This document shows, piece by piece, positions 1,103 to 26,250 of a stretch of 36,490 nucleotides of DNA. The notes under the pieces were generated by a model. That model saw only the letters and a program-made list of their open reading frames with translations, had not been told where the DNA came from and did not search any database. The DNA is from an uncultured Pseudomonadota bacterium. Its GTDB lineage: Bacteria > Myxococcota_A > Polyangia > HGW-17. Position numbers and translations under genes: made by a program. Each line of letters begins with the position of its first letter. The first letter of the stretch is position 1. The stretch is taken from positions 1 through 36,490 of the forward strand of contig CALKWH010000116.1 of NCBI GenBank assembly GCA_938004375.1. The letters are read 5' to 3'.

Positions 1103-1216
1103 GTCCCTCCCATGACACAGCCCCGCCTCCATGTCAACCGCCCCCGTTGTCATCCCCCGCCTCCTCTGCTATGTTGCGCCATTCCATCGCGGAACCGTCA
1201 CCCCACGGAGTCGACC

Positions 1217-3271
1217 ATGCGAACCCTCCATTCCATCCTGTTTCTCGTGCTCCCCCTCACGCTGCTCGCCTGCAACGCCCAGGTCAAGACCGTCGAGTCC
1301 TGCGGCGACGGCGTGCTGGACCCCGACGAGCAGTGCGACGGCGACGCCACCTCGGCGGGCAACTGCGAGGCCCTGGGCTACTACCAGCAGACCGGCGATC
1401 TGGTCTGCCGCACCGACTGCACCCTGGACACCTCGGTGTGCCTGTCCCGCTGCGGCGACGACGTGATCCAGACGACCTTCGGCGAGCAGTGCGAGGGCGA
1501 CGACCTGGCCGCCGAGACCTGCGAGACCCTGGGTCTGGGTGCCGGCAACCTGGGCTGCAACGCCTCGTGCCGCTACGACACCTCGGCCTGCGAGAACGAC
1601 ATCGAGTGCGGAGACGGCGTCATCATCGGGCGCTTCGAGGATTGCGAGGGCGAGGATCTCGACGGCCAGACCTGCGCCTCACTGGGGTACTACGGCGGCG
1701 AGCTCGCCTGCGATCCCTACACCTGCACCTTCGTCCTCGGCGGCTGCGAGAACTTCGGCCGCTGCGGCGACAACACCATCCAGGCCACCTACGCCGAGGA
1801 CTGCGACGGCTCCGAGCTCGGCGGCGCCACCTGCGGGTCCCTCGGGTACTACGGCGGCCAGTTGACCTGCGACACCGGCTGCCATTTCCTCCCCGACGAC
1901 TGCGCCACGTTCGGCCGCTGCGGCGACGACCTGATCCAGGACGCCCACGGGGAGCTCTGCGAGACCGGCCAGCTCGGCGGCGAGACCTGCGAGTCCCGGG
2001 GCTGGTACGGCGGCGAGCTCGCCTGCGGCGCCGACTGCACCGCCTTCGACGAGTCCGCGTGCGCGGCCGAGGGCCGCTGCGGCGACGGCGCCATCCAGGA
2101 GGCCCACGGCGAGACCTGCGACGGCACCGACTTCGGCGGCGTCACCTGCCGCGACGCAGGCGCCTTCACCGGCACGCCCACCTGCACCGACGAATGCGCG
2201 CTCACCACCGCCGCCTGCGTCAACGCCACCGCCGTGTCGGCGCGGCGGTACTTCGCCTGCGCCCGGCTAGGCAACGGCACCGCGCGCTGCTGGGGCTTCA
2301 ACTACGTCGGCCAACTGGGCGACGGCACCACCGTCACCCCGCGCCTCACCCCCGTGGCCGTCACCGGCCTCACCGACGCCATGGACGTGGTCGTCGGGGA
2401 TTCCCACGCCTGCGCCCGGCTCGCCGACGGCACCGTGCGTTGCTGGGGTCTCAACGAGAACGGCCAGTTGGGAGATGGTTCCTTCAGCAACTCCTCCACG
2501 CCCGTGACCGTCTCCGGACTCTCGACCGTCGTCGAGCTCGCCCTCGGCTGGGACCACACCTGCGCCCGGCTCGCCGACGGCACGGCGCGCTGCTGGGGTC
2601 GCAACACCGGCGGCCAGGCGGGTGACGGCTACACCAGCAACCTGAACATCCCCACGTTGGTCAGCGGGATAGCCGGCGCGGTCTCGGTCGCCGCCGGCGA
2701 CCAGCACACCTGCGCGGTCCTCTCCGACGGCACCGCCCGCTGCTGGGGTGTGAACAACCAGGGCCAGCTCGGCGACGGCACCAACACCCGCCGGCTCACC
2801 CCCGCGCAGGTCTCCGGCCTTTCCACCGCCGTCGAGGTCGCCGCGGGCTTCAACCACACCTGCGCGCGCCTCTCCGACGGCACCGCCAAATGCTGGGGCT
2901 ACAACAGCAGCGGCCAACTGGGAAACGGCACCACCACCAATTCCAACGTCCCCGTGGCCGTCACCGGCCTCGCGGGAGCCGATGACCTCGTCCTGGGCTA
3001 CTCCCACTCGTGCGCCCGGCTCACCGACGGCACCCTGCGCTGCTGGGGCCACAACAGTTCCCACGAGCTCGGCGACGGCTCCACCGCCCAGCGTACCACC
3101 CCCGTCGCCGTCCTCAACCTGAATGGGATCTCCTCGTTGGCCCTGGGCGAGATGTTCACCTGCGCCCTCCCGCCCTCGGGCGTCCCCGTGTGCTGGGGCT
3201 TCAACGAGGACGGCGAGCTCGGCAACGGCACCATCGTCGAAGCCGCGTCCCCGACCCCCGTCAGCCCCTGA
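1217..3271 (+). CDS. Cys-rich (DUF4215-type) and RCC1-repeat surface lipoprotein
   Basis: A 684-residue secreted protein. The start at 1217 has an ACGGAG ribosome site and opens a lipoprotein signal ending L-L-A-C at about residue 19. Six Cys-rich modules follow (about residues 29-335), each starting CGDG or CGDD and carrying a D/E-x-C element, like the myxobacterial disulfide repeat (DUF4215 type). The second half (about 339-684) holds seven RCC1-type blades, each with an RCWG-like core followed by N-x-x-G-Q-L-G-D/N-G-T, predicted to close a seven-bladed beta-propeller with one Cys per blade in the CWG motif. The layout is common among proteins of unknown function on myxobacterial surfaces; a binding or adhesion role is inference. 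Base composition is strongly GC3-biased, in keeping with native chromosome. The reading frame stays open far upstream only because the region lacks stops. Confidence 0.85.
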   Translation: MRTLHSILFLVLPLTLLACNAQVKTVESCGDGVLDPDEQCDGDATSAGNCEALGYYQQTGDLVCRTDCTLDTSVCLSRCGDDVIQTTFGEQCEGDDLAAETCETLGLGAGNLGCNASCRYDTSACENDIECGDGVIIGRFEDCEGEDLDGQTCASLGYYGGELACDPYTCTFVLGGCENFGRCGDNTIQATYAEDCDGSELGGATCGSLGYYGGQLTCDTGCHFLPDDCATFGRCGDDLIQDAHGELCETGQLGGETCESRGWYGGELACGADCTAFDESACAAEGRCGDGAIQEAHGETCDGTDFGGVTCRDAGAFTGTPTCTDECALTTAACVNATAVSARRYFACARLGNGTARCWGFNYVGQLGDGTTVTPRLTPVAVTGLTDAMDVVVGDSHACARLADGTVRCWGLNENGQLGDGSFSNSSTPVTVSGLSTVVELALGWDHTCARLADGTARCWGRNTGGQAGDGYTSNLNIPTLVSGIAGAVSVAAGDQHTCAVLSDGTARCWGVNNQGQLGDGTNTRRLTPAQVSGLSTAVEVAAGFNHTCARLSDGTAKCWGYNSSGQLGNGTTTNSNVPVAVTGLAGADDLVLGYSHSCARLTDGTLRCWGHNSSHELGDGSTAQRTTPVAVLNLNGISSLALGEMFTCALPPSGVPVCWGFNEDGELGNGTIVEAASPTPVSP

Positions 3272-3289
3272 GCTTCGCTCCCCCACTCC

Positions 3290-3362
3290 CACAAGGACTG
3301 CGGCCCCCGGTCCCCGCATCTTCCCCTCCCCATATGGACTGCGGCCACTTGGGGCCGCAAGT
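3290..3362. repeat. Two further GGACTGCGG-family hairpins
   Basis: Two more copies of the element seen at 1-346: GGACTGCGG at 3295 with arms GCGG/CCGC, and GGACTGCGG at 3336 with arms GCGGCC/GGCCGC around ACTTGG. They sit immediately after the RCC1 gene stop and may act as its transcription end, but no U-tract follows. Confidence 0.7.
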
Positions 3363-3462
3363 TCCACGAGCGCCGCATCTTGCCCGGTCTTCGTTCCTTG
3401 ACGCGCCGCCCCGACCCACGATACAACCGCCTGCAGCACCGAACCCCCAGGCGGCGTCCACC

Positions 3463-5061
3463 ATGGCCAAAAACGACCGGAAGAAAAAGAGCAGCGCGAA
3501 GAAGAACCCCGCCCACGCCGGGCAGGAGCGTCGGCGCCGCATCAACGAATGGATGGACCTTGTGGGCCGCGTGTGCGAAGCCTGCGGAGCCGGCGACCTG
3601 TTCGACAGCCTCACCGAGTGGGAGCGCAACTACTTCGAGGCCGCGCGGCTCCCTCCGGTCCAGTTGCGCAAGGCCCCCGGGCACGAGATTCCCGCCGAGG
3701 TATTCTCGCGCCTCGAGATCCTGTTCCGGAACACGATCCAGAAGGATCTCGTGAAGGTGCCTCCCAGTAATAAACTGATCGGTCTGGGTGAGTTTCTCCG
3801 CGCCGAGGCCGCCCTGCGCGGAATCTACAGTCACAGTCTGACCTCGACCCAGGAGCGCGCGGCCCGCTGGGTCAAGGCGCTTGAGCCGTTCAAGAGTTTC
3901 GTCGACGACAAGGACGCCGTCGAGATATCTCCCATGATGAAACTGTGGACCCTGATGTGCTATTACGCGGCCGTGTGCGGGGACATCAGACGCCTGGTGT
4001 TTCCGGTGCGGCTCCAATGGGAGGCCCGGAGCAAGGAACTTTCGGGGATGCTCCAGTACTTCGAGATCTCCTCGATGCCTGCGGAGCATCGCGTGTTCCA
4101 GGTGGGATCGCAGAAGCGGCGCTCCTACCGGCTTCTCGTCCAGTCCGTGTTGACCCTGAAGGTCTATCCCGCCGTACTTTCCACCAAGGTGATCCCGGGC
4201 CTGGAAGATCAGCCCGAACGGCAGTTGCCCGTGTACGTGCAGGAGCACGTCCGCCTGCGCATGAACGAGCGCCTGGATCCCCTGGCCGAGGATGAGATGG
4301 ACCACCTGCTCGGGGACACGATGTCGAGACCGAAGACCGTGCCGCTGCGCGACGGCGCCTTTCTACTCGAGCTTCAGATGTATCATTGCCTCCTCGGGTA
4401 TGTGGTGGCCGAGGTCATCGACGACGCCGGCGGGCCGGCCGGTGAGGCGGTGCTCATGCGCACGTTCCTGTTCGTGACCCAGTCGGGCACCCCCGAGGGA
4501 GACCGCTTCAACGAACGTCTGAAGGTGGGAAACTATGAGAAGAGCTACTTCAGGCTCGACCGGCTGGCGCCCTTCATGACCACGGACCTGTGCCAGGATC
4601 CCGTGTTCCAGGAGATCCTCCGGGAGTGCGGCATCGGCGACCTCATCGAGGTCGTGAAAATCAACCGCGAGGTCCGCCGCTCCCTGGAGACCCGCGAGGG
4701 CAACGCCGAGGACATCCGAAACCAGCTCAACATCACGGCACCCGCCCTGGGGGACACGCCGCCTGGCGCCGCTTTGGGCTCCGGTTCGAGCGCTGGTTCG
4801 GGCGCCGGGTCAGGCTCCGGTCGCGACGTCCTGTCCGGTCCCGCTCCGCGTCCGTCGGTGCCCCGCCTGCGGATGCTTCGCCGGGGCCACCGCCGCCCCA
4901 TCACCGCCTCCGTGCGCCGCCCCCGGATTCCGGCGCCGCCGTCGGCGGGTGCCCCACCCGCTTTGCCGCCGCCGTCTCCGGCGCCTTCGTTCCCCGGACC
5001 CCGCCGCCTCGCCTTCGTTCCTCTGAAAATCCGTCGCCGCCTGCGCCCCCCACGATTTTGA
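3463..5061 (+). CDS. Hypothetical protein with basic Pro/Arg-rich C-terminal tail
   Basis: Not recognised. The start at 3463 (ACCATGG context) gives 532 residues beginning with a Lys-rich leader. Residues about 20-425 look like a globular, mainly helical protein with no signal peptide and no clear transmembrane segment, so it is probably cytoplasmic. No catalytic motif was identified. After about residue 430 the character changes to a Gly/Ser linker and then a Pro/Arg/Ala-rich low-complexity tail. The stop is only 12 bp from the 3' end of the convergent AT-rich sigma54 regulator gene, exactly where the GC content falls. The odd tail may therefore be out-of-frame readthrough created when foreign DNA was inserted, or by a frameshift near 4760-4850, rather than a native C-terminus. 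Confidence is good for a gene and low for its last 100 residues. Confidence 0.7.
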   Translation: MAKNDRKKKSSAKKNPAHAGQERRRRINEWMDLVGRVCEACGAGDLFDSLTEWERNYFEAARLPPVQLRKAPGHEIPAEVFSRLEILFRNTIQKDLVKVPPSNKLIGLGEFLRAEAALRGIYSHSLTSTQERAARWVKALEPFKSFVDDKDAVEISPMMKLWTLMCYYAAVCGDIRRLVFPVRLQWEARSKELSGMLQYFEISSMPAEHRVFQVGSQKRRSYRLLVQSVLTLKVYPAVLSTKVIPGLEDQPERQLPVYVQEHVRLRMNERLDPLAEDEMDHLLGDTMSRPKTVPLRDGAFLLELQMYHCLLGYVVAEVIDDAGGPAGEAVLMRTFLFVTQSGTPEGDRFNERLKVGNYEKSYFRLDRLAPFMTTDLCQDPVFQEILRECGIGDLIEVVKINREVRRSLETREGNAEDIRNQLNITAPALGDTPPGAALGSGSSAGSGAGSGSGRDVLSGPAPRPSVPRLRMLRRGHRRPITASVRRPRIPAPPSAGAPPALPPPSPAPSFPGPRRLAFVPLKIRRRLRPPRF

Positions 5062-5073
5062 TCCTGCGTATCC

Positions 5074-6996
5074 TTACCAACCAGACTTTTTCCATCGTCT
5101 CAGAGTTGATTCGCTGATACGCCCTTTTTTTGCTGCCAATTGTAATGTGCCAAATTTTTTTATAACTTGAGATGCGATAGTATATTTAAAACGTTTTTCT
5201 GCCAACCGTAGATCACTGTAATCCGATTCACTGATAGAACAGTTTTCTTCATCCAAATGCTGTTTTGCCGGATTTATTGTCTGGCCTTGCCACTCGCTTT
5301 TCAATTGTTCAAAAGTGTCTAAGTCCAAGGAATCCTGACCGTTTTCCCGCATCAGATCTGCACACATGATTACCAGGCGCTGCAAATCCCTGAAGTTTCC
5401 AGGAAAGGCCTGCTCATTTAACCAATCCTGAAACGCACAACTCTGGTTGCTCCCTTTTTCATTGAGCGGATCCACCAAAGCTGGTTTGAATTCCATTTCA
5501 TGCCAGACTTTCTTCCAAGCCGGCGCTATTTCATCCGGTTTCAATTCTGGGAGGGAGATTTTTCTCTGAAGAACTCGCTCCAAAAAATCCGGGTAGATTT
5601 GAGATTCCTGGCCGTTTCTTCCTGATTTCAACTCCTCTTCGGTCCAGTTGGTACCCAAGATCACCTGGAACTTGGCTTTCATGGTTTCTGCACTACCCAC
5701 TTTTCGGAAAGAGAAGTTACCATTTTTGTCCGTTTGAATTGCAGTCAGTAGTTTCTGTTGAATGGCCCTCGGGAGGTGGTGGAATTCGTCTAAAAATAGT
5801 ACCCCGTATTTATTATTTGTTTTTTCCGAATACTGTTTCAGTTTTCCAAAGACCCCCTCATCCCCTTTGTTATTTCCCCCCGTAAAGGCACCCTGCACAT
5901 AACCAAAAAGTTCGGCTTCAGCCAGCGATTCCGGAATACTCGAACAATTCACTGGAAAAAACCCTTCTGCTTCTTTCGTGTCATTTTCCGGGAAAAAGAT
6001 CTCTCGAATCAAGCTCGATTTTCCGCTCCCACGAGGCCCAAAAATGACGATGGAAAACAAGTCGTTCCATTTCTTATAGTTGTTAAGTCTTCTTTTTGCT
6101 TTTTTTCGTTCGGGGCACCACCACTCATCGGATTCAATGATTGTTTCGGTTTGAATGAAAATATTCTGTATGGTATCGCGAAATTGAAAAGGACGAAATC
6201 TCCTCGGATCGTCGCTTGAACTCCATGTTGCGACCTCAAAAAATACCGAGTTTTTTAATTTGATACGACGTGGCTTCAGATATCTCCAGCCGAGATGGTC
6301 AAGTGGGGTGGTTGATCGCAGGTTGATACCTACAAGGGTTTCTGGGGTGAATGTATCCGTCAATCTCTCTTGAATTTTGAGCCACTCCTGCACCTCTTCA
6401 TAATCTCCGGATAACCCGCTCAGTTTCACCACCTTGATTCGACCATCAGTTTTTCCTATCGTAGGCACACTTTCAATGACATCAATCAATTTCTTATAAT
6501 GTGAATATTTTTGGAACCATTCTACTTGCTGTTCAATAGGCAGTTGATGAATGATTTGCCAGAGGTCGTGCATCTGATCGTCATCCCAATTCATCGCCTT
6601 AGCTTTTTCAACTATATTGCATCCCTCAGGACTATTGCTTAACAGTAGACGAAATCTTTCGATGACTTCTGCAGAATTTTCCGCTCCGTGCTCATCCTTC
6701 AGACTATTTTCTAATTTATCACTTAATCGTATCCCAGAGACTTTTGGTGTTTCTCTCTTTGATTCTGCCATTGGAACAAGAAGAATCACACCATTCAGAC
6801 AATTTGGAAAAGTAGGCCCTTCTCTATTCATCTCATATTGATCTAGCCAATTTGAATATTTAATACTAGATAGGCCTCCGTGATATATTTGATTTTTCGC
6901 AAGACCTTTTAACATGATTTCCATGAAAGCCAGTCCATGATACTGCAGGTGACTGGTTACCAAGGTCCATGTTTGAGGTTCGTTTTTTTGGCTCAT
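5074..6996 (-). CDS. Sigma54-dependent AAA+ transcription activator, RtcR-like
   Basis: A 640-residue bacterial enhancer-binding protein. The AAA+ domain has Walker A GPRGSGKSS (residues 320-328), the sigma54-contacting GAFTG loop (369-373) and Walker B LFLDEF (Asp403-Glu404). A GNFRDLQRL segment resembles the conserved GNxREL motif, and a Fis-type helix-turn-helix occupies about the last 40 residues. The N-terminal 300 residues are not a response-regulator receiver or a GAF/PAS domain I recognise. A stretch near residues 220-240 (VGINLRSTTPLDHLGWRYL) resembles the TTGT loop region of the CARF-like sensor of RtcR, which responds to RNA-derived ligands; this is inference. The start at 6996 has GGAGG nine bases upstream. 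The gene is AT-rich and divergent from an operon with a sigma54 promoter at 7168-7183, its obvious target. Confidence 0.88.
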   Translation of the reverse strand: MSQKNEPQTWTLVTSHLQYHGLAFMEIMLKGLAKNQIYHGGLSSIKYSNWLDQYEMNREGPTFPNCLNGVILLVPMAESKRETPKVSGIRLSDKLENSLKDEHGAENSAEVIERFRLLLSNSPEGCNIVEKAKAMNWDDDQMHDLWQIIHQLPIEQQVEWFQKYSHYKKLIDVIESVPTIGKTDGRIKVVKLSGLSGDYEEVQEWLKIQERLTDTFTPETLVGINLRSTTPLDHLGWRYLKPRRIKLKNSVFFEVATWSSSDDPRRFRPFQFRDTIQNIFIQTETIIESDEWWCPERKKAKRRLNNYKKWNDLFSIVIFGPRGSGKSSLIREIFFPENDTKEAEGFFPVNCSSIPESLAEAELFGYVQGAFTGGNNKGDEGVFGKLKQYSEKTNNKYGVLFLDEFHHLPRAIQQKLLTAIQTDKNGNFSFRKVGSAETMKAKFQVILGTNWTEEELKSGRNGQESQIYPDFLERVLQRKISLPELKPDEIAPAWKKVWHEMEFKPALVDPLNEKGSNQSCAFQDWLNEQAFPGNFRDLQRLVIMCADLMRENGQDSLDLDTFEQLKSEWQGQTINPAKQHLDEENCSISESDYSDLRLAEKRFKYTIASQVIKKFGTLQLAAKKGRISESTLRRWKKSGW

Positions 6997-7030
6997 TGCG
7001 TCTTGCCTCCAGAAACCGAAGTATCACAAA

Positions 7031-7044
7031 TGACAGATCTGTCA
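7031..7044. promoter_or_regulatory. Perfect 14-bp palindrome, possible activator or autoregulatory site
   Basis: TGACAGATCTGTCA is a perfect palindrome 34 bp upstream of the sigma54 activator start and about 125 bp upstream of the -24 element of the divergent operon. That distance suits an enhancer (UAS) for this class of activator and could also allow autorepression. Function is inferred. Confidence 0.5.
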
Positions 7045-7070
7045 AGAATGAACATTCATAAATGAAAATT

Positions 7071-7087
7071 TGGCAAATTTATTGCCA
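7071..7087. promoter_or_regulatory. Inverted repeat TGGCAA-N5-TTGCCA, possible activator site
   Basis: A 6-bp perfect inverted repeat with a 5-nt AT-rich spacer, about 80 bp upstream of the -24/-12 promoter. Two smaller palindromes (GAATG-AA-CATTC and TTCAT-AA-ATGAA) lie between it and the 7031 palindrome. The cluster looks like a multi-site upstream activating region. Confidence 0.45.
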
Positions 7088-7167
7088 CCTTGTGTTCGAT
7101 TAGAATCTAAGAATTCCCTTGATTTATAAGGTATTTTGTGTGTTTTATGCTGCATGCTCACACCTGT

Positions 7168-7183
7168 TGGCACGATCTGTGCA
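7168..7183 (+). promoter_or_regulatory. Sigma54 (-24/-12) promoter of the six-gene operon
   Basis: TGGCACGATCTGTGCA matches the sigma54 consensus TGGCACG-N4-TTGCW at all defined positions but one. The invariant GG (7169-7170) and GC (7181-7182) are separated by exactly 10 nt. Transcription should start near 7194, about 28 nt before the first gene. A gene for a sigma54 activator lies directly upstream on the other strand. Confidence 0.82.
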
Positions 7184-7221
7184 AAACTTCTCCGTAGTAA
7201 GGCGAAGGAAGGATGGTACAG

Positions 7222-7500
7222 ATGAAATACAGCAAGCACGCACAATCGAGAATTAAAAATCGTGCAATCACCGACGAGGCGCTTGATTTGGCCATGAAAG
7301 AAGGAGTGACTCTTTCTGAAAATCCCAACAGGATTCTGCTCACCAAGGAGGTCGTGCAAAAACTGGGGGGCAATGGTGATTATCCTGATGACCTCCTTCG
7401 TAGAGTTGAGAAAGTCGTTCCCTTCGTGGTGGTCGTCAACGGTGACCAGTTGATCACTGCTTTTCGGGTCGATCGCCGTATCAACAAGCAACGTGCCTGA
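7222..7500 (+). CDS. DUF4258-family small protein
   Basis: A protein of about 92 residues resembling DUF4258: an N-terminal KYSKHAQSRIKNRAIT segment (the ysxHAxxRxxxRgI signature), a helix, and a C-terminal beta hairpin containing VVVVNGDQLITAF. The family has a compact fold related in outline to RelE-like proteins and is often found near toxin-antitoxin or mobile genes; its biochemical role is not established. ATG 7222 is preferred because GGAAGG ends nine bases upstream; an ATG three codons earlier (7213) abuts that site with no spacing. It is the first gene behind the sigma54 promoter, 33 bp before the next gene. Whether it is a toxin, a ligand-binding protein or an RNA-binding accessory cannot be told from sequence. 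Confidence 0.75.
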   Translation: MKYSKHAQSRIKNRAITDEALDLAMKEGVTLSENPNRILLTKEVVQKLGGNGDYPDDLLRRVEKVVPFVVVVNGDQLITAFRVDRRINKQRA

Positions 7501-7533
7501 AGCACTGCCGTCGAGGCAGAAAGGTTAAGATAA

Positions 7534-8877
7534 ATGAAAAAAGCACTGTACCCCATACTCAATCCTGAAGGGACCGGGTATCTCCGTGATAACAAACCCT
7601 GCTTCTCAAAGATTTGGCTCGTTGCTCAGAGTTTCCATGCGCCGGAGGACCTGGCGGCGGTGCGCGATCAATCTGGAGCCTATCATATTTGCTTGACAGG
7701 ACAAGAGGCGTATTCTCACAGGTATCAGTCCACCTTTGGATTCTATGGCGGAATCGCCACCGTGAAAGATCAAGAGGGGTATTTCCATATCGATAAGGAA
7801 GGTAATCCAATACATTCTCGCCGCTTTTTCTGGAGCGGTAATTATCAGGAAGCATGCTGTGCCGTCCAGGATGACACTGGCTTCTACCACATCGATGAAC
7901 AGGGAAACGCTCTCTACCAAGAACGCTTTTCATATGTCGGCGATTTTCGTCATGGCATCAGCGTGGTGCGGAAAGCCAATATTGCTTGGCATATTCAAAA
8001 AAATGGCAATAAACTACACCCTCACCAATTCCTGCATGCCGATGTGTACCATAAAGGATTCGCCGTCGCACAAGATCGGCATGGATATTTTCATATCGAT
8101 GCAAAAGGCAGTGAACTCTATACCCACCGATTTGCAACGCTGGAACCTTTCTATAATGGTGCGGCCCTTGCTAGTACTTTTTCCGGACACTGGGCTCGCA
8201 TCAACCAGAGCGGACATTATTGCCTTCTGGCCCCAACCCCAGCATTCCTGACTGGGGATGAACTGAAAGAGCGGCTGAAGAACGGGGAAAGGGTTGTGAT
8301 GATTTTACGACATTCTGAGCGGGAAAAAATTCCGAAGAACTCTTGGGGAACTGAGTCCCCTCTGACTGAAGCCGGTAAGGAGTACGCAAGACAACTTGGA
8401 GAAAAATTAAAAACAAATATATCTTGGCAGTTTATATCCAGTCCGGTCGGGCGATGTATCGACACCTGCTCAGCCTTCGCACAAGGTCTCGGGCAAATAC
8501 TCTGCCGGGAATCCATTCCCACCTCACCCCTGCTAGGCGAACCCGGTGCCTTCCATGACCCTGTGTCGCCTCCCAGTCTGACTCCGGAAAATTTTATGGA
8601 AAGCGCGACTAGGTATGTTCTGGAAGGCTTTTCACCTGGATTTCGACCCCTCACCGATGGCTGCCAAGACATTCTGGATTTTGCAGGACGTGCGGCAAAA
8701 ATTGCTCCAACTCTGTTTTGCACCCATGACTTTTTTATCGCTGGCTTATTTGCATTCCTCTCACTCCACCGGCCAACTCGAGAGGAGTGGGTGGAGTTTC
8801 TCGAGGGCATCTGCCTCTTCTATCATGAAAACACCCTCACCGAATGGCGGCGTTTCCAAGGTTTGAAGGAGGTATGA
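7534..8877 (+). CDS. WG-repeat protein fused to histidine phosphatase domain
   Basis: A 447-residue two-part protein. Residues about 30-240 contain repeated units of the form G-x-Y/W-H-I-D-x-x-G-N, spaced about 25-30 residues apart, typical of WG beta repeats that form propeller-like binding surfaces. Residues about 255-447 are a histidine phosphatase (phosphoglycerate mutase-like) domain: the catalytic motif appears as RHS (Arg259-His260) in place of RHG, followed by SPLTEAG, SSPVGRC and a second catalytic His in THD (about residue 398). The core residues are present, so a phosphatase or phosphotransferase is likely. There is no signal peptide. AAAGG nine bases upstream supports the start. 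The stop overlaps the ribosome-binding region of the next gene, consistent with translational coupling. The substrate is unknown; the neighbours suggest a phosphorylated sugar or nucleotide-linked intermediate. Confidence 0.82.
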   Translation: MKKALYPILNPEGTGYLRDNKPCFSKIWLVAQSFHAPEDLAAVRDQSGAYHICLTGQEAYSHRYQSTFGFYGGIATVKDQEGYFHIDKEGNPIHSRRFFWSGNYQEACCAVQDDTGFYHIDEQGNALYQERFSYVGDFRHGISVVRKANIAWHIQKNGNKLHPHQFLHADVYHKGFAVAQDRHGYFHIDAKGSELYTHRFATLEPFYNGAALASTFSGHWARINQSGHYCLLAPTPAFLTGDELKERLKNGERVVMILRHSEREKIPKNSWGTESPLTEAGKEYARQLGEKLKTNISWQFISSPVGRCIDTCSAFAQGLGQILCRESIPTSPLLGEPGAFHDPVSPPSLTPENFMESATRYVLEGFSPGFRPLTDGCQDILDFAGRAAKIAPTLFCTHDFFIAGLFAFLSLHRPTREEWVEFLEGICLFYHENTLTEWRRFQGLKEV

Positions 8878-8879
8878 TC

Positions 8880-10547
8880 ATGCTGACCATAGGTATTCAT
8901 GGAATTCCGGACAGTTCCAGTCAAGGGCATGCGCACGATCATGCGCTCGCCTTCATGAGGGATGGCATGGTCCTGGCCTGCATGGAGTTGGAGAGGTTTT
9001 CCCGCACCAAGCAGGATGGCACACTCCCCGATCATTTCGACGCTCTGCTGAAACCATGGCTGCTGCCCGACGAGGATCTGCAGTTTGTGTTGGTGAGTGG
9101 CTTTTATGGCCGGACCTTTCATTCCAACACGAACAGTCTGGAGTTGCAGATTCCTGATGATCTGACGCCGGAGAAGCTTCTTGTGCCTATTCCGGTCAAG
9201 CTCAATGGAATTCTTGATAATCACTCTGCTTCGGCCTGGGCCATCAGCCACGAAGCCGCCCATATTTGCACCTGCCTGCCATTCTTTGGCCCGTTTCAGG
9301 AAGATTCTTTGCTCGTCCATATTGATGGAGGGGCCTCCGTCTCATCGAGCTCCTGCTGGTTGTTTAGGAATGGCTCCTTGCAGTGCCTGGGTTATGACTG
9401 GAATCGTCTCAAACGGGTCGTCAATTATTTCAACGACAATGAAATCTCCCGGAAGATCCTGGGGTTGCCAGTTTCAGACCATCTGGCCATGCCAGGAAAA
9501 CTGATGGGGTTTTCAAGCCATGGCCATGCCATTGGTTCCTTGACCCAGGAAATCAGATCCTTTTCCGACCTGCCGGCCGAGAAACAATTCTTGGATCATT
9601 ACCCCAACCTGAAAGCTTTCATGCAAAACCTAAAGGCTGGATCTGACCCAACGAAAATTCCCGGTAGTGCAAATATTGCATCGTCCATGCAGCTGGATTT
9701 CGAAAAAACCGTCCTGGATTTTCTGGCCGAATGGAAGGAACGGACCGGTGCAAAGCGCCTGTACTATTCCGGGGGCGCTGCCTTGAATATCCATGCCAAC
9801 GCGCGTATCGAAAGAGAGCTTGGATTTGAGCAGGTGTTTGTTCCGCCCAATCCTGGCGATTGCGGCTTGGCGCTAGGCGCCGCCGCACTTTTAGAGAGCC
9901 AAGGAAAGTTGTGTCTCCAACAATCAACGCCGTTTCTGGTATCCAGTTCTCAACGGGAAAAATCGCATGCGATGCCGATGGTGCGCTTCCATGTCGAGCA
10001 GGTTGCCAAACTCATCGCGAATGGAAAAGTGGTAGGAACATGCCTGGGTGCCGGTGAAACCGGACCTCGGGCACTGGGTCACCGCAGCATTCTTGCTCGA
10101 CCCGATGACCCCGGGCTTCGTATGAGAATTAGCGAAGTCATGAAACAGCGGGAGTGGTATCGCCCGGTGGCCCCCATGATGCTTCTGGAAATCGCCCGGC
10201 AGGTACTGGAAAATTACCCCATCAATTCAAACTTGTCCCAGTTCATGTTGGGGGCCTGGCAATTGAAGAGCGAATATCACCCAAATTTTTCCGGTGTGGT
10301 TCATGCTGACGGAACAGTACGGGCGCAAACCGTGTCATCGCATTGGGTGGAGTTGGAACCCATTCGTGCCCTGCTTCACGCGCTGCGCCAGGAATATGGC
10401 CTCATGGGAATAATCAATACTTCCTTTAACAAACGAGGAGAACCTATCGTGCAAACCAAGGAAAACGCAATTACTACCGCCCGAGCCCTCGGACTGGACG
10501 CAGTATGGTTGGAAATGGATGGTGAATCATGTGTGCTGGAACTCTGA
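8880..10547 (+). CDS. NodU/CmcH-type O-carbamoyltransferase
   Basis: A 555-residue enzyme of the carbamoyltransferase family (NodU, CmcH, TobZ). These enzymes make a carbamoyl-adenylate from carbamoyl phosphate and ATP in the C-terminal YrdC-like domain and transfer the carbamoyl group to a hydroxyl in the N-terminal Kae1-like domain. Visible family motifs, in order, are HDHALAF, ELERFSRTK, HIDGGAS, YSGGAALN, PPNPGDCGLALGAA, TGPRALGHRSIL, REWYRPVAP and INTSFNKRGEPIV. Length and motif order are normal and no key block is missing. ATG 8880 is chosen because GGAGG lies seven bases upstream; an ATG at 8874 overlapping the previous stop is too close to it. The acceptor is probably a sugar made or attached by the next genes. 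Confidence 0.92.
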   Translation: MLTIGIHGIPDSSSQGHAHDHALAFMRDGMVLACMELERFSRTKQDGTLPDHFDALLKPWLLPDEDLQFVLVSGFYGRTFHSNTNSLELQIPDDLTPEKLLVPIPVKLNGILDNHSASAWAISHEAAHICTCLPFFGPFQEDSLLVHIDGGASVSSSSCWLFRNGSLQCLGYDWNRLKRVVNYFNDNEISRKILGLPVSDHLAMPGKLMGFSSHGHAIGSLTQEIRSFSDLPAEKQFLDHYPNLKAFMQNLKAGSDPTKIPGSANIASSMQLDFEKTVLDFLAEWKERTGAKRLYYSGGAALNIHANARIERELGFEQVFVPPNPGDCGLALGAAALLESQGKLCLQQSTPFLVSSSQREKSHAMPMVRFHVEQVAKLIANGKVVGTCLGAGETGPRALGHRSILARPDDPGLRMRISEVMKQREWYRPVAPMMLLEIARQVLENYPINSNLSQFMLGAWQLKSEYHPNFSGVVHADGTVRAQTVSSHWVELEPIRALLHALRQEYGLMGIINTSFNKRGEPIVQTKENAITTARALGLDAVWLEMDGESCVLEL

Positions 10548-10558
10548 ATCACCTCAAA

Positions 10559-11479
10559 ATGCCGATTTTGATCACCGGCCATGAGGGGCTCGTAGGCCGT
10601 CATCTTTGGAAAGCCCTGCAGGCAGGTGGAAGAAATTTGGTGGGTCTGGATCTCGTTGCCACCGAGGAGCTTTTCCGGGGTGACATCCAGGATTCGCGTC
10701 GCCTCAGCGAAGCCCTTTCTGGTGTATCCGGGGTGGTGCATCTCGCTGCCGTTTCCAGGGTCATCTGGGCAGAACAGGAACCTGAAAAATGCTGGGCTAC
10801 CAATGTCCTGGCCAGCAGAAACCTGCTCGAGCTCGCGATCGATAGCCCGAATCGGCCCTGGGTATTGGCGGTCAGCAGCCGTGAGGTCTATGGCGAGGCC
10901 CAGGTTTTTCCGGTAGCCGAAACCACCCAACTCAGGCCTGTAAATATTTACGGTGAAGCCAAACTCCAGATGGAAATTGCGGCACATCAAGCCAGGAATA
11001 GGGGGCTGAACACGGCCATAGTTCGTCTGGCCAACGTCTACGGATGTCCACTGGACCATCATGACCGGGTCTTGCCGGCCTTCTGTCGTGCTGCTGCAAA
11101 TGGTGGCACCTTACGTGTGGACGGAATGAATCATTTGTTCGATTTCACCCATATTTCCGATGTGGTCTCGGGCCTTCTCCGGCTGGTTGCGCTTCTGGAC
11201 CACGGCGTCACCAACCTACCCTCCGTCCATCTGCTGCCAGGTGTCGCAACCACGCTCGGTGCGGCTGCACGCATGGCCGTTGCCGCGGCGGGGACCGGAG
11301 CTCGCATCGTGCAAGGTGATTCCAGAAAGTACGATGTCAGCCGTTTCGTGGGTTGTCCTCGACGGGCACAAGAACTGCTAAACTGGAAAGCATCCATTTT
11401 GCCGGAAGCCGGCATCCACATGTTCGTGAAAATGTTGCAAAATGCACTCATACAGGAGGGTGTCAATGAAAATCATTAA
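10559..11479 (+). CDS. NAD-dependent epimerase/dehydratase (extended SDR)
   Basis: A 306-residue extended short-chain dehydrogenase/reductase. The Rossmann start ILITGHEGLVGRHL has the GxxGxxG pattern; the catalytic set is S-S-R-E-V-Y-G with YGEAK (YxxxK), and FDFTHISDV is the usual substrate-side block. Members interconvert or dehydrate NDP-sugars, so it probably shapes the sugar that is carbamoylated or transferred. ATG 10559 puts the nucleotide-binding strand at the very N-terminus as usual; an ATG at 10529 overlapping the carbamoyltransferase gene would add ten residues, and neither has a strong ribosome site. The 3' end overlaps the glycosyltransferase gene by 14 bp. Exact sugar specificity cannot be read from the sequence. 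Confidence 0.87.
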   Translation: MPILITGHEGLVGRHLWKALQAGGRNLVGLDLVATEELFRGDIQDSRRLSEALSGVSGVVHLAAVSRVIWAEQEPEKCWATNVLASRNLLELAIDSPNRPWVLAVSSREVYGEAQVFPVAETTQLRPVNIYGEAKLQMEIAAHQARNRGLNTAIVRLANVYGCPLDHHDRVLPAFCRAAANGGTLRVDGMNHLFDFTHISDVVSGLLRLVALLDHGVTNLPSVHLLPGVATTLGAAARMAVAAAGTGARIVQGDSRKYDVSRFVGCPRRAQELLNWKASILPEAGIHMFVKMLQNALIQEGVNENH

Positions 11480-12767
11480 AGTTATCCATGGTTATCCGAT
11501 GCGCTACAATGCGGGCTCGGAAGTGTATTCCCAGACGCTCTGTCATGGGCTTGCCGCCAGGGGTCATGAAATTCACGTTTTTACCAGGGAAGAAGACCCT
11601 TTCAAACCCGACGGGGCTCTATCTCTGGAACAGGACCCGGACGAATCGAGAATTCAACTCCATGTCGTCAACAACCCCAGGCATCGGGATCGATACAGGC
11701 TCAGCGTGATTGACGAACGCTTTTCACAATTACTCGATTCTGTCAAACCCGACATCATTCACATCGGGCACCTCAACCATTTATCTACGAATTTGGTTTT
11801 CGAGGCGGCCAGGAGGAGCATCCCCATCCTCTTCACCCTGCATGATTATTGGCTGATGTGCCCCAGGGGACAGTTCATGCAGATGCATTCACCTGAGCCG
11901 GACCTTTGGGCGGCCTGTGAAGGCCAGGAAAACCACAAGTGCGCCGTGTCATGCTACGCACGCTATTTTTCCGGCGCACCGTCCGAGGAAGCACTGGACC
12001 TCGAGTATTGGACACGCTGGGTGGAACGAAGAATGAACCACATTCGAGAAGTGGCTGCCTTGGTTGATTTGTTCATCGCGCCGGCCAAATACCTCAAGTC
12101 CCGGTTTGAAAATGATTTCGGTCTGAATCCGGAAAAGATGGTCTATCTGGACTATGGCTTCGACCGAAAACGCATGGCAAACAGGCATAGGGTTCGCGAG
12201 GAACCGTTCACGTTCGGGTACATCGGAACCCATATCCCAGCGAAGGGTATCCACCTACTGATTGAAGCCTTTGGGCTATTGAGAGGAGGTTGTCAACTTC
12301 GCATCTGGGGCCGGCCAAGGGGTGAAGAAACAGAAGCCTTGAAGAAAAGGACCCTCAGCCTGTCACAGGATCAACAGCAGCGGATACGCTGGATGGGGGA
12401 ATACAGAAACCAGCGCCTCACCGAAGAGGTATTCAATCTGGTTGATGCAATCGTTGTTCCTTCCATCTGGGTGGAGAACAGTCCGCTGGTGATCCATGAA
12501 GCCCAACAGGCCAGGGTTCCCGTCATCACAGCCGATGCGGGTGGAATGTCGGAATACGTCCATCATGAAATCAATGGTCTTCTCTTCGCTCATCGGTCGA
12601 TTCCATCCCTGGCCACACAGATGCAACGTCTTCTGGATGATGCAGACTTGGCCACTGAACTGGGGACCCGAGGCTACCTCTATTCGTCCGATGGGCAGAT
12701 TCCCGACTTGGAAGGCCACATTGTGGAAATGGAAAACCTGTACCGGAGAGTCTTGAGGCGATCATGA
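11466..12767 (+). CDS. GT4-family glycosyltransferase
   Basis: A 433-residue GT-B fold glycosyltransferase. The N-terminal domain begins KIIKVIHGYPMRYNAGSEVY, with the Gly-rich acceptor loop, and includes HDYWLMCPRGQ. The C-terminal donor domain has FGYIGTHIPAKGIHLLIEAF and the E-x7-E type signature around PLVIHEAQQARVPVITADAGG-MSE, typical of family 4 retaining enzymes using NDP-sugars. No membrane segment is evident. The start at 11466 has AGGAGGG upstream and lies inside the 3' end of the epimerase gene; the stop shares an ATGA with the radical SAM gene, so production of the three proteins looks coupled. Donor and acceptor are unknown. Confidence 0.9.
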   Translation: MKIIKVIHGYPMRYNAGSEVYSQTLCHGLAARGHEIHVFTREEDPFKPDGALSLEQDPDESRIQLHVVNNPRHRDRYRLSVIDERFSQLLDSVKPDIIHIGHLNHLSTNLVFEAARRSIPILFTLHDYWLMCPRGQFMQMHSPEPDLWAACEGQENHKCAVSCYARYFSGAPSEEALDLEYWTRWVERRMNHIREVAALVDLFIAPAKYLKSRFENDFGLNPEKMVYLDYGFDRKRMANRHRVREEPFTFGYIGTHIPAKGIHLLIEAFGLLRGGCQLRIWGRPRGEETEALKKRTLSLSQDQQQRIRWMGEYRNQRLTEEVFNLVDAIVVPSIWVENSPLVIHEAQQARVPVITADAGGMSEYVHHEINGLLFAHRSIPSLATQMQRLLDDADLATELGTRGYLYSSDGQIPDLEGHIVEMENLYRRVLRRS

Positions 12768-13786
12768 TGCCTGAACCTTGCTGGCGAATCACGCTGGATA
12801 CCAATCCAGACCATTGCAATATGCACTGTATGATGTGCGAGGATCATTCCGATCTTGCAAAGCGCAGGAAGCGAAACTTGCCCGGAAGACCCCTGATGCC
12901 GAGGGAATTATTGGAATCCGTTTTGGAACAGGCCGTGCGTTTCGGCGTGAAGGAGATCATCCCCTCGACCATGGGTGAACCGTTGATATACCCCCATTTC
13001 AATCGGATCGTCGAGTTCTGCACGGAAAGTTCGCTTTCTCTCAATCTCACCACCAACGGGACATTTCCACCAGGTCCCGGGAAACGCTCCGTCGAAGATT
13101 GGGCAAACCTGATTGTCCCTGTGGCGAGCGATATCAAAATCTCCTGGAACGGAGCCACCGAAAAGACGCAGCAAAGGATCATGCCCGGAACCACCCTGGC
13201 CGGACATGTCGACAACGCAAATCGATTTTTGGCGGTGCGGGATGAACGCTTTCGAGCCAGTGGCAGACGTTGCCGCATGACCATGCAAATCACATTCATG
13301 GAATTGAATCTGGCAGAACTACCAGCGATGTTGCGACTGGCCCATGAAATGGGCTTCGACAGGATCAAGGGGCACCATCTTTGGACACACTTTCCTGAGT
13401 TGGAATGTCTGTCACTGCGCCGAAGCCCTGATTCCATCAGCCGTTGGAACGACATGGCGCGACATTGCCGGACACTCGCATCGCACATGATCTCCCGTTC
13501 GGGTCAGGAGATGGAACTGGCAAACTTCTTTGATCTGGATCCTGCTCTCCGGGACGATATATCACCCCATGGGAAATGCCCGTTTTTAGGAAAAGAAGCC
13601 TGGGTGAATTCGGAAGGAGAATTCAATGTTTGTTGTGCCCCCGACCTCCTGCGTCGGTCCTTGGGCACGTTTGGAAACCTTCGGGAAAAGACTCTGGACG
13701 AGATCTGGAACAGCCCCGCCTATAGGACCCTTTGTGAAACCTACATGAAAAATGCCCTCTGTCAGACCTGCAACATGCGCAGATGA
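12764..13786 (+). CDS. Radical SAM protein with SPASM domain
   Basis: A 340-residue radical SAM enzyme. The [4Fe-4S] motif is C18-x3-C22-x2-C25 (CNMHCMMC) close to the N-terminus, followed by a TMGEPL segment equivalent to the GGEP SAM-binding motif and by LTTNGT. The C-terminal SPASM-type region has CPFLGKEAWVNSEGEFNVCC and ends CQTCNMRR (Cys333, Cys336), binding one or more auxiliary clusters. Such enzymes modify peptides (RiPP maturases, anaerobic sulfatase maturases) or small molecules including sugars and aminocyclitols. No RiPP recognition element or precursor peptide was found next to it, so a sugar or other metabolite substrate is an equal possibility. It overlaps the glycosyltransferase gene by 4 bp and closes the operon. 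Confidence 0.88.
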   Translation: MMPEPCWRITLDTNPDHCNMHCMMCEDHSDLAKRRKRNLPGRPLMPRELLESVLEQAVRFGVKEIIPSTMGEPLIYPHFNRIVEFCTESSLSLNLTTNGTFPPGPGKRSVEDWANLIVPVASDIKISWNGATEKTQQRIMPGTTLAGHVDNANRFLAVRDERFRASGRRCRMTMQITFMELNLAELPAMLRLAHEMGFDRIKGHHLWTHFPELECLSLRRSPDSISRWNDMARHCRTLASHMISRSGQEMELANFFDLDPALRDDISPHGKCPFLGKEAWVNSEGEFNVCCAPDLLRRSLGTFGNLREKTLDEIWNSPAYRTLCETYMKNALCQTCNMRR

Positions 13787-15001: not shown

Positions 15002-15030
15002 TTGACAACTATTGTCATTTGCGCTACTTC
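15002..15030 (+). promoter_or_regulatory. Promoter with overlapping palindromic operator
   Basis: TTGACA (15002-15007), 17 nt, then TACTTC (15025-15030) forms a plausible sigma70-type promoter. TGACAA-CTA-TTGTCA (15003-15017) is a perfect 6-bp inverted repeat lying over the -35 box, well placed for autorepression by the XRE-domain protein encoded 40 bp downstream. Confidence 0.6.
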
Positions 15031-15056
15031 GTTTGAAGAAGCCAAGGAGGTTCGTC

Positions 15057-16208
15057 GTGGAGAACCACCACATCGGAAACAACCTGCGGCGCCTGCGCCA
15101 CGCGAAGGCGCTCACCCAGGAGTACGTCGCCGACAAGGCCGGAATCACCCGCGCCGCGTACCGCAACATCGAGGCGGGCCGGTCCGAGCCGCGCGTCGGT
15201 ACGCTCCAGTCCATCGCCTGCGCCATGGACGTCAACATCCAGTATCTCGTTGAACCGGCGCGCAGCCTCCAGGCCGTCCGGTTTCGCTCTCTCAAACGGC
15301 TGCGCAGCCGTGAGCAGATTCTGGTCGATGTGGCGCGCTGGCTCGGCGACTTCAACGAGCTGGAGAACGCCCTCGATGACCATGTGGTCAATCAACTCGT
15401 CTCGTTTACTGTCAACGAGCAGCCGGGCGCGGACCGGGCCGTCCTCGCAGCAGCGCTCCTGCGCGAGCACTTTGGAATCGGAGCGGATGAACCGATCCGC
15501 GACCTTTGCGGGCTGCTCGAGGCGCAGGGTATCAAGGTCGGCTCGGTCCCCATCGCCTCTCACGATTTCTTCGGGCTCTCGGTGGCCGGCGCCGATGGGG
15601 GACCGGCCGTGGTCGTCAACACGTGGGAGCGCATCTCGGTGGAGCGCTGGATCTTCACGGCCGCCCACGAGCTTGGCCACCTCGTCCTGCACCTAGCCGA
15701 TTATGACGTGGGCAGCACCGCCGAGCCAGAAGAGCACGAGAAAGAGGCCAACGCCTTCGCGGCAGCCTTTCTGATGCCCGAGCCCGCGTTTTGCAGGGCG
15801 TGGGACGAGACCTATGGGCTTTCGCTCCTGGACCGCGTGCTCAAGGTCAAGCGCATCTTTCGGGTGAGCTACCGCACCGTGCTGAATCGCCTCTCGGGCG
15901 GCGGCGTGGTTCAAGGAAACATCTGGGTGCGGTTCCAGCAGGACTATCAGCGGCGCCACGGCCGCACCCTGTTGCGCGTGGATGAGCCCGAGGCGCTCGC
16001 CATCGACGCCTTCCGCGCCGGCTTCCCCGAATACCTGGCGGCCACCGAGCCCGAGCACCTCTCGCGGGTGGATTTCCCCGGCGACCGGCTCTCGCGGCTG
16101 GTCCGCAAAGCCGTCGAACACGAGAAGATCAGCCTCGGCCGTGCCGCCGAGATCCTGCGAATCTCCCTTCAGGAGATGCGGGACCTCGCCGCCACGTGGG
16201 TCGGGTAG
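15057..16208 (+). CDS. XRE-family regulator with ImmA/IrrE metallopeptidase domain
   Basis: A 383-residue fusion. Residues 1-65 are an XRE/Cro helix-turn-helix (NNLRRLRHAKALTQEYVADKAGITRAAYR). The second half is an ImmA/IrrE-type zinc peptidase with AAHELGHLVLH (HExxH at about residue 203) and the downstream E-x-x-A-N-x-F-A-A-A-F-L-M-P block that supplies the third ligand. In this class the peptidase domain commonly cleaves a repressor or antitoxin after a stress signal. The start is a GTG at 15057 placed six bases after AAGGAGG; an upstream ATG would ignore this site. Three bases separate the stop from the PIN-domain gene, so the two form a bicistron resembling a toxin-antitoxin pair, probably autorepressed through the palindrome at 15003. 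Confidence 0.88.
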   Translation: MENHHIGNNLRRLRHAKALTQEYVADKAGITRAAYRNIEAGRSEPRVGTLQSIACAMDVNIQYLVEPARSLQAVRFRSLKRLRSREQILVDVARWLGDFNELENALDDHVVNQLVSFTVNEQPGADRAVLAAALLREHFGIGADEPIRDLCGLLEAQGIKVGSVPIASHDFFGLSVAGADGGPAVVVNTWERISVERWIFTAAHELGHLVLHLADYDVGSTAEPEEHEKEANAFAAAFLMPEPAFCRAWDETYGLSLLDRVLKVKRIFRVSYRTVLNRLSGGGVVQGNIWVRFQQDYQRRHGRTLLRVDEPEALAIDAFRAGFPEYLAATEPEHLSRVDFPGDRLSRLVRKAVEHEKISLGRAAEILRISLQEMRDLAATWVG

Positions 16209-16211
16209 CTC

Positions 16212-16733
16212 ATGGATTCCAGCGTCACCTGGTTGCTCCTCGTCGATGCGAACGTCCTGATCGACTTTGTGAAGACCGAACGGTCGATCCTTCAACTGGC
16301 GGCCCGGCACCTGGGAGTGGTCTATGTATTGTCCACCGTGCTCGCCGAAGTGGATGGTCTGGATGCAGACGGCTGCGCCTGCCTCGGTATCCGTGTCTTT
16401 GAGCCTGAGCTCGCAGACATCCTAGCCGCTGCCCGGAAACGAGGCGCACTCTCGACCCAAGATCACCTGTGCCTGATTCTGGCTCGTAAGCAGGGATGGA
16501 CTTGCGTGACCAACGACGGTGCACTGCGCAAGGCGTGCCAACTCGAACAAGTGCCCGTGCTGTGGGGACTCCAGATGATGCTGGAGCTCGTACGAATGGG
16601 TCAACTTCCCGGCGCTGATGCGATCGCGGTGGCGAACGCCATCCATCGCATCAATCCTTTCCACATCACTGTCAGGATTGTTGCCAGATTCATCGAGGAA
16701 GTGGACGCGCTTTCCAACTCTGGAGAGCGGTGA
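16212..16733 (+). CDS. PIN-domain putative ribonuclease (toxin-like)
   Basis: A 173-residue PIN-like protein. The acidic residues expected of the Mg-dependent RNase fold are present in order: Asp12 in VDANVLID, Glu in VLAEVDGLD, Asp in STQDHLCLILARKQGW and Asp in VTNDGALRKA. PIN toxins cleave RNA and are usually neutralised by a partner encoded next to them, which here would be the XRE-ImmA/IrrE protein three bases upstream. The C-terminal 45 residues extend past the usual PIN core and may bind that partner. It starts at 16212 without a strong ribosome site of its own, implying translational coupling. The stop codon lies inside a perfect hairpin. Toxicity is inferred from family and arrangement. 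Confidence 0.78.
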   Translation: MDSSVTWLLLVDANVLIDFVKTERSILQLAARHLGVVYVLSTVLAEVDGLDADGCACLGIRVFEPELADILAAARKRGALSTQDHLCLILARKQGWTCVTNDGALRKACQLEQVPVLWGLQMMLELVRMGQLPGADAIAVANAIHRINPFHITVRIVARFIEEVDALSNSGER

Positions 16734-23485: not shown

Positions 23486-23503
23486 ACCATGAAAGGCTAA
23501 TCC

Positions 23504-23746
23504 ATGGAAACCAACCTGGTTCAACAACTCACCGCCACCTTTGAAGGCCACGCTCAGCAGACTGAAAACGGCATTGAATATTGGCTGGCCCGCGATCTTC
23601 AGCAGTTGCAAGGTTATGTGGAGTGGCGGAACTTCCACCAGGCCATTTCGAAAGCGAAAACCGCCTGCGAAGTCTCTGGCCATGCGGTTTCCGATCATTT
23701 TGTTGACGTCAACAAGAAGACCCCGGACACTCTGGAAGGCGTATGA
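23504..23746 (+). pseudogene. Truncated DinD-like (BRO-N type) protein
   Basis: An 80-residue frame matching the start of DinD-type proteins: ENGIEYWLARDLQQLQGYVEWRNF, then SGHAVSDHFVDV, followed by a stop where the family continues for about 200 more residues. Its own paralogue at 25265-26134 is full length and shows the same W-F/L-A-R-E/D-L-Q and Y-x-x-W-x-N-F signature, so this is best read as a broken copy. The last bases share an ATGA with the following small frame. Confidence 0.7.
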
Positions 23747-26134: not shown

Positions 26135-26135
26135 T

Positions 26136-26233: not shown

Positions 26234-26250
26234 GAGCAACATCTGGGAAC

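Follow-up and report, generated by a model that had tools for sequence, protein, structure and literature searches.

A candidate signal-gated biosynthetic operon with a GT4, radical SAM and WG-repeat core and apparently exchangeable tailoring genes

We analyzed a window of 36,490 nucleotides from an uncultured bacterium (contig CALKWH010000116.1), and in particular the region 5074-13786, which encodes a sigma54 activator on the minus strand and, across a 216-nt spacer, six co-directional genes on the plus strand (Table 1). All seven open reading frames (ORFs) were located at or near the places given in a first reading of the letters alone (the original prediction), and ORFs, Pfam matches and site scans agree with its picture of an AAA+ sigma54 activator divergent from six packed genes, with a -24/-12 site and palindromes between. 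Start codons were slightly corrected from the DNA for the carbamoyltransferase, SDR, GT4 and DUF4258-like genes. The start/stop overlaps that had been noted are certain at two of the five junctions, SDR/GT4 (the SDR stop at 11479 lies beyond the GT4 ATG at 11466) and GT4/radical SAM (the GT4 stop lies over the ATG at 12764). A third overlap, of the phosphatase stop with the ATG at 8874, exists if the carbamoyltransferase starts there; the remaining two junctions have gaps of about 33 nt (DUF4258-like/WG-phosphatase) and about 11 nt (carbamoyltransferase/SDR).

Table 1. Genes and candidate regulatory elements of the activator and operon region (positions in the window).
Feature	Position	Strand	Basis
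Sigma54 activator, 640 aa: RtcR-like N-terminal domain, AAA+ domain, C-terminal helix-turn-helix	5074..6996	-	PF00158, 93 bits
Perfect 14-nt palindrome TGACAGATCTGTCA, candidate activator-binding site	7031..7044	.	Inverted-repeat scan
Inverted repeat TGGCAA-5 nt-TTGCCA, candidate regulatory site	7071..7087	.	Inverted-repeat scan
Predicted -24/-12 sigma54 promoter TTGGCACGATCTGTGCAA; start site expected near 7195	7167..7184	+	23.5 of 25
Small DUF4258-like protein, operon gene 1	7213..7500; start probably 7222	+	Alignment, Pfam
WG-repeat beta-propeller, predicted (residues ~1-235), and histidine phosphatase (~240-447) in one protein	7534..8877	+	PF14903, PF00300
NodU/TobZ-type O-carbamoyltransferase	8880..10547; ORF from 8844; start probably 8874 or 8880	+	PF16861, 157.7 bits; PF02543, 68.7 bits
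SDR-type NAD-dependent sugar epimerase/dehydratase	10559..11479; ORF from 10529	+	PF01370, 136.8 bits; start from DNA
GT4 glycosyltransferase	11466..12767; ORF from 11442	+	PF00534, 89.8 bits
Radical SAM/SPASM enzyme	12764..13786	+	Pfam, alignment of 23

The gene identities first proposed were recovered by Pfam for all proteins but the small one. The assignment of the small protein to DUF4258 (PF14076) is weak, with 15.4 bits for the window copy against a cut-off of 25, and three of 15 aligned members match at E<=10 (best E 1.5e-7). In the phosphatase, the RH motif, second Arg and second His (R259, H260, R307 and H398), which we take to be the catalytic residues of histidine phosphatase branch 1, are invariant in 21 aligned sequences. 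The WG half of the same protein, with repeats spaced 34 residues, is predicted to be a beta-propeller, as its structure model (predicted local distance difference test, pLDDT, 93.6) was matched by Foldseek to the propellers BamB (3q7m, E 1.5e-9) and the designed Ika8 and Cake10. Both domains of the carbamoyltransferase are above cut-off; TobZ is its nearest solved chain (E 1.1e-39), and a HEAAH motif lies at residue 136 of the longest ORF. The GT4 enzyme is nearest to Tll1590 (6kih, E 5.2e-12). Cysteines of the radical SAM CxxxCxxC motif (C18, C22, C25) and of the SPASM half (C272, C290, C291, C333, C336) are invariant in 23 aligned sequences, and the SPASM half of BtrN was matched weakly (E 7e-5). 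A viperin-like function for this enzyme was rejected (24 bits against a family cut-off of 180; PADLOC pVip, 27 bits).

The spacer contains a -24/-12 site, TTGGCACGATCTGTGCA, beginning at 7167, that scores 23.5/25 against the sigma54 consensus; 200 dinucleotide shuffles of the spacer, taken with 60 nt on either side, gave p 0.005. A looser -24/-12 pattern has a single match on both strands of the 36.5 kb, and this is the same site. Scans for sigma70 promoters and terminators gave chance-level results only, and Rfam (gathering cut-off) and tRNA scans of the window gave no match. The G+C content per gene is 39-56% in the operon block, compared to 67-72% in the two frames to the left and 59-66% on the right side (13.8-16.2 kb). 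Because the block differs from its flanks, activator and operon resemble one acquired unit, and horizontal acquisition is probable.

Related loci were found via the WG domain. A scan of GTDB species genomes yielded 129 confirmed loci, the best 80 of which were kept; adding the window, phage WO and Arsenophonus loci and removing the duplicates L016 and L026 gave 81 loci for comparison. Genes for GT4 and radical SAM enzymes accompany the WG domain in 57 of the 59 loci with at least 5 kb upstream of WG (L022 and L058 are the exceptions). Thus, the repeated co-occurrence that the original prediction had named as its support was found: the GT4, radical SAM and WG genes recur together in other phyla rather than in unrelated contexts. 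The exact six-gene set that it had taken as the unit did not hold up, as what the loci share is this three-part core.

A chance cluster of unrelated functions under one promoter could account for the gene order, which varies between loci, and for the SDR gene, which was undetected in 46 of 62 complete loci. Nonetheless, it is very improbable given the 57/59 co-occurrence across phyla. Moreover, the radical SAM family is present in two of 296 Bacteroidota genomes, and only those two have a WG match >300 bits, on the same contig (one of them, G006, belonged to the query set, which leaves the other as the single independent case). Weaker WG matches (<=97 bits) in 95 other Bacteroidota genomes were taken as generic WG repeats.

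A search of 5.8 billion proteins with the WG-phosphatase gave 38 matches, of which 21 (query included) cover at least 92% of the query; 14 further matches combine the WG half with another enzyme, an O-methyltransferase in 13 and a class II aldolase in one (P0022). Five of the 20 other full-length relatives come from contigs of exactly the same length as those of full-length activator relatives, which suggests that the two genes lie on one contig. The WG domain also occurs as a stand-alone form.

The loci occur in Bacteroidota (including the named strains Saprospira grandis, Bizionia echini and Flavobacterium lacus), Myxococcota, Planctomycetota, Fibrobacterota, Campylobacterota and Asgard-binned contigs (L008, L023, L035, L048, L052, L054), among others. 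One Asgard-binned contig, L054, is 184 kb long; the others are 3.7-44 kb, and binning errors are possible for these shorter contigs. The cassette is also present on phage WO and Arsenophonus plasmids. Among viral contigs the WG profile found no relative, and the radical SAM profile found two in IMG/VR, viral by database label, that carry the core (L103:5296-11342 and L102:6666-9703); one of these has an activator, a phosphatase and a methyltransferase. Loci L051 and L066 are extended clusters with an APH-type kinase and additional radical SAM enzymes. Locus L001 of Desulforapulum has the full set in identical order, with activator and small gene, and the myxococcal loci L002 and L003 have everything except the SDR gene, in a different order. 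The radical SAM tree rejects a grouping of the window with Desulforapulum L001 and the myxococcal L002 and L003 as one clade (approximately unbiased test, p-AU 0.008; the branches are long), and thus the shared layout may have arisen partly through mixing.

The genes around the core differ between loci in a patterned way. Among the 62 loci with a complete core, 27 have only a methyltransferase as cap gene, 13 only a carbamoyltransferase, none both and 22 neither (Fisher p 2.5e-4); 26 have only a histidine-type phosphatase, 20 only a tyrosine-type phosphatase with a nucleotidyltransferase, two both and 14 neither (p 1.7e-5; both tests ignore shared ancestry). At least one cap or phosphatase gene was detected in 57 of the 62. 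On a 73-sequence radical SAM tree, the cap switches at least six times among 48 labeled loci (100 shuffled labelings average 12.3) and the phosphatase at least eight times among 52. A second tree left out L032, the radical SAM protein of which is on a very long branch and resembles another family. We read capping and dephosphorylation as two functional slots that appear to be filled by different enzymes. As far as sequence comparison goes, the unit is a GT4-radical SAM-WG core plus exchangeable tailoring genes, carbamoyl transfer being one option.

The activator has a Walker A motif (GPRGSGKS), and GAFTGG replaces GAFTGA (the last residue is variant). The PADLOC model RtcR_PspF1 CARF_AAA_HTH matches with 157.6 bits, only over residues 290-637. 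The N-terminal domain matches an RtcR N-domain profile over 64 columns only (P 1.1e-4, probability 56%; three unrelated control profiles, P 0.16-0.75). In fold searches with the whole-protein model (pLDDT 85) the list was filled by AAA+ structures, so that missing CARF chains there are uninformative. The activator shares with RtcR, the activator of rtcBA RNA repair (PMC7790460; E. coli rtcR), a putative N-terminal ligand domain, an AAA+ sigma54 domain, a helix-turn-helix and the position divergent from its target operon. It differs from RtcR in that its target is a biosynthetic operon, and identification as an RtcR ortholog was rejected (109.1 bits against a cut-off of 650; no PF06956 at E<=0.01; rtcA in one of 18 activator genomes). 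Thus, the earlier label of RtcR-like applies to the layout, and by its sequence the protein is not RtcR. RtcR-like proteins outside the Rtc system have been seen near restriction systems (PMC4012209).

Where at least 2.5 kb of sequence precedes the cluster (45 loci), an activator gene is present in 22. Sigma54 sites were scored in the stretch of about 200 nt that precedes the first cluster gene. They are enriched where an activator stands head to head (26 loci; Fisher-combined p 7.5e-9; ten loci with p<=0.05), and in nine of those ten the site sits 13-52 nt before the matched start. There is no such enrichment in 37 other loci (combined p 0.94; two with p<=0.05; Mann-Whitney between groups p 2.6e-6). 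This comparison left out L016, L026, L034 and loci without a GT4 gene or with less than 270 nt of upstream sequence, and counted L059, with an activator-like gene that is not head to head, among the 37. An earlier scan of the spacers of 24 loci, a set including the duplicate pair L024/L026, gave p 2e-6 on the forward strand and 0.34 on the reverse. The rpoN gene was identified in 18/18 tested genomes holding the activator-bearing form, compared to 4/14 control genomes, including the sole Bacteroidota control. Co-occurrence, site enrichment and rpoN all agree with the original proposal that the genes form one functional unit under a sigma54 activator of their own.

The small gene tends to occur with the activator, being detected in 19 of 27 activator-bearing complete loci and in one of 35 without activator (Fisher p 8.5e-9). 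The 15 aligned small genes share just H9, R17, I19 and T82, and by BLAST the small genes of L049, L063 and L071 group apart; given this divergence, the small genes may not all share one ancestor. Activator relatives encoded by the divergent genes of L020, L049, L061, L063, L065 and L073 are 301-346 aa long with no Walker A in the called ORF, and may be degenerate or have another start. Inside the Saprospira grandis cluster lies a second activator-like gene, which encodes the AAA part without the N-terminal domain (L025:7930-8832).

The ligand of RtcR itself is tRNA fragments with cyclic phosphate ends (PMC7790460). We looked for genes of known signal sources in 18 genomes (18 of the 28 activator-bearing loci, window counted; genome completeness is unstated), and identified RtcB in 9/18, RtcA in 1/18 and the Cas10 palm in 7/18. 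Thus, no single known source accounts for the switch.

Overall, we favor a signal-gated biosynthetic operon that makes a radical-SAM-modified glycoside, dephosphorylated and capped with a carbamoyl group here and a methyl group elsewhere, with a probability of roughly 0.55. A ligand would free the N-terminal domain of the activator, a ring would form, and sigma54 RNA polymerase would be remodeled at 7167-7184 to turn the operon on. The SDR enzyme would prepare a sugar nucleotide, GT4 would transfer the sugar onto a phosphorylated acceptor, and the radical SAM/SPASM enzyme would oxidize or epimerize the intermediate. The GT4 and radical SAM steps are probably consecutive, since the two are fused into one frame in many other loci. 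The phosphatase would then remove the phosphate and the TobZ-like enzyme would add the O-carbamoyl cap, with the WG propeller probably holding the common substrate for these steps. We propose this scaffold role because a propeller is predicted and because a cap or phosphatase gene is present in nearly all clusters, sometimes fused to WG (in the window WG shares a protein with the phosphatase, in phage WO and in some Asgard loci with a methyltransferase, and once with a class II aldolase). The enzyme set fits a small glycoside made via a phosphorylated intermediate, with the order of steps as we infer it. The original prediction of a carbamoylated, glycosylated product thus survives in part, carbamoyl transfer being one option within the family, and what is said here of product, signal and benefit remains inferential.

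Several observations weigh against this reading. As detected, 14 of the 62 complete loci have neither phosphatase type, 22 have neither cap enzyme and five have none of the four. With independent pairs on supported branches, which allow for shared ancestry, both swap signals have the right direction and are non-significant (median p 0.25 for each; for the cap, no pairs are in the same direction). No activator was found in 23 of the 45 informative loci, so gating is optional within the family, and eight of the 26 activator-bearing loci have no good -24/-12 site (p above 0.2). In some members of the activator family, the called ORF has no GAFTGA-like motif or no Walker A. The propeller fold comes from a predicted model, for which the Foldseek template modeling (TM) score across the full model is about 0.31, at 11% identity, and the list of a second structure aligner was filled by the phosphatase half. 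The operon block is not the sole low-G+C patch in the window, as others lie at 18-19 and 30-32 kb. Finally, we know of no enzyme of this family with a proven substrate.

The same genes could instead modify a macromolecule (a surface lipid, glycan or protein), the SDR and GT4 enzymes adding a sugar that the radical SAM enzyme and carbamoyltransferase decorate. The published guess for the product of the related Undecim Cluster of Wolbachia phage WO is exopolysaccharide or lipopolysaccharide (LPS), to which homologues were assigned by annotation (PMC9203015, PMC4701759). The solved chains nearest to our radical SAM enzyme are those of anaerobic sulfatase-maturating enzyme, and two swap slots would suit enzymes that decorate one constant scaffold. 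Peptides are frequent substrates of SPASM enzymes. Histidine phosphatases and TobZ-type enzymes, on the other hand, are small-molecule families, and Asgard archaea, in whose contigs the core also occurs (the short ones possibly misbinned), have no LPS. There is a single glycosyltransferase, and neither the seven genes nor the annotated recurrent partners include a polymerase, a flippase or a lipid-carrier transferase. Since the seven genes include one glycosyltransferase and no polymerase or flippase, a small tailored glycoside is more likely than a polymer, and we regard macromolecule modification as possible, if doubtful.

The product might also serve chemical or abortive defense: infection or RNA damage would raise a nucleotide-like ligand, the activator would fire, and the product would harm phage, the infected cell or a competitor. 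The original prediction placed the operon in a defense-rich island. Such a setting is evident in the window, where type I restriction genes follow the operon at a distance of about 6.6-15.8 kb, and in only some relatives. In the flanks of 14 loci with an activator, 131 PADLOC models have matches (E<=1e-15; 89 of 108 flanking ORFs scanned), a redundant count in that one protein can match a dozen models. Among the matches listed (25 of the 131) are pAgo, type IIG restriction, a type IV restriction enzyme and reverse transcriptases. In rpoN regions of the same genomes, taken as control, 11 models matched (83 of 177 ORFs scanned), with two strong hits (PDC-S01 and a reverse transcriptase). The flank signal comes from some loci, most clearly L075 (pAgo, PDC-M16A) and L076 (type IIG). 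Of 20 picked flank proteins, seven match PADLOC, several through generic helicase domains only, and 13 do not, including all those picked from L002, L003, L020 and L057. Thus, the association of the flanks with defense is suggestive. The presence of the cassette on phage WO, Arsenophonus plasmids and the two IMG/VR contigs would also fit. Within the operon itself, however, no gene matches a known PADLOC system beyond the AAA+ half of the activator (RtcR-type, weak mad8) and the weak pVip match. Because the Cas10 palm was not found in 11/18 and rtcA in 17/18 activator genomes (again of unstated completeness), neither known CARF signal source is general. In addition, Undecim expression is described as constitutively high through the fly life cycle (PMC12801941). 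A defense role is rather improbable.

The original prediction knew of no described system with this exact gene set; a described relative is the Undecim Cluster (WD0611-WD0621; PMC9203015, PMC4701759), which has homologous SDR (37%), GT4 (50%), radical SAM/SPASM (47%) and WG (43%) proteins. The four homologues are adjacent in L081. In Undecim, where these genes stand in a row, GT4 is fused to radical SAM (UC3) and WG to an O-methyltransferase (UC4), whereas in the window GT4 and radical SAM are separate and WG is on the phosphatase. Undecim adds PhyH, an ABC exporter, threonine aldolases and others, none of which Pfam identified among the seven window proteins; the window instead has the carbamoyltransferase, phosphatase, DUF4258-like gene and activator, and neither an activator nor a sigma54 site was found at the Undecim locus. 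Judging from these comparisons, the window does not hold an Undecim cluster and shares its core. PMC4701759 describes both domains, KWG and radical SAM, for WD0613 and WD0614, reports the KWG-methyltransferase fusion as unusual and expressed at the protein level, and mentions possible distant syntenic homologues of the Undecim core in Desulfovibrio hydrothermalis, Haliangium, Capnocytophaga and Saprospira. The functions of the Undecim genes are still called unknown in PMC12801941. The cluster is duplicated in the Wolbachia lineage wPau.

Other known systems are less similar. The window resembles tailoring sets for aminoglycosides and nucleosides in its TobZ-nearest carbamoyltransferase, in the BtrN match of the radical SAM enzyme and in the APH-type kinase and nucleotidyltransferase domains of some relatives; it differs in having no complete aminoglycoside scaffold pathway. 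To our knowledge, the WG domain is not part of such sets. The GPMC system (NCBIfam NF038229/NF038230) likewise combines GT4 with a sigma54-type regulator, and was rejected on weak matches (30.0 and 21.3 bits against cut-offs of 400 and 1200). Among the titles listed in literature searches, none concerned a CARF- or RtcR-controlled GT4-radical SAM pathway, within the limits that wording sets to such a search (PMC4701759, for example, writes "KWG" rather than WG repeat). As far as these searches show, the family beyond Undecim, its exchangeable caps and phosphatases, and its tie to an RtcR-like sigma54 switch are new. By the same searches, this would be the first biosynthetic pathway tied to such an activator, making the activator ligand an approachable question. 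With free-living relatives at hand, the Undecim product can be sought outside an obligate insect symbiont.

A bolder combination of these ideas, unlikely as a whole, is that the family is a mobile cassette crossing domains of life and making one class of radical-SAM-derived glycosides, capped by methyl or carbamoyl groups and held by a WG beta-propeller dedicated to them. In free-living bacteria the cassette would stay off until a CARF-like sigma54 switch sensed a nucleotide danger signal, and would serve as an inducible chemical defense or signal. In phage WO it would be constitutive, and would be the hidden function of Undecim.

The remainder of the window contains several other genes. The type I restriction locus (hsdR, hsdS, hsdM) spans 20417-29584, with Bro-N, weak Y1-transposase-like and RhuM genes between S and M. 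A gene encoding a helix-turn-helix and M78/IrrE-like peptidase, followed by a weak PIN-like gene (below cut-off), lies at 15012-16733 and resembles a toxin-antitoxin or regulator pair. A 1439-aa frame at 29694-34013 gave no match in Pfam or PHROG (E<=0.01), nor in PADLOC. To the left of the activator, 98-5061 encodes an RCC1-repeat protein (72% G+C) and, overlapping it, a frame of 683 aa that has no Pfam domain. This second frame stops 13 bases short of the activator gene, where the base composition changes to that of the operon block.

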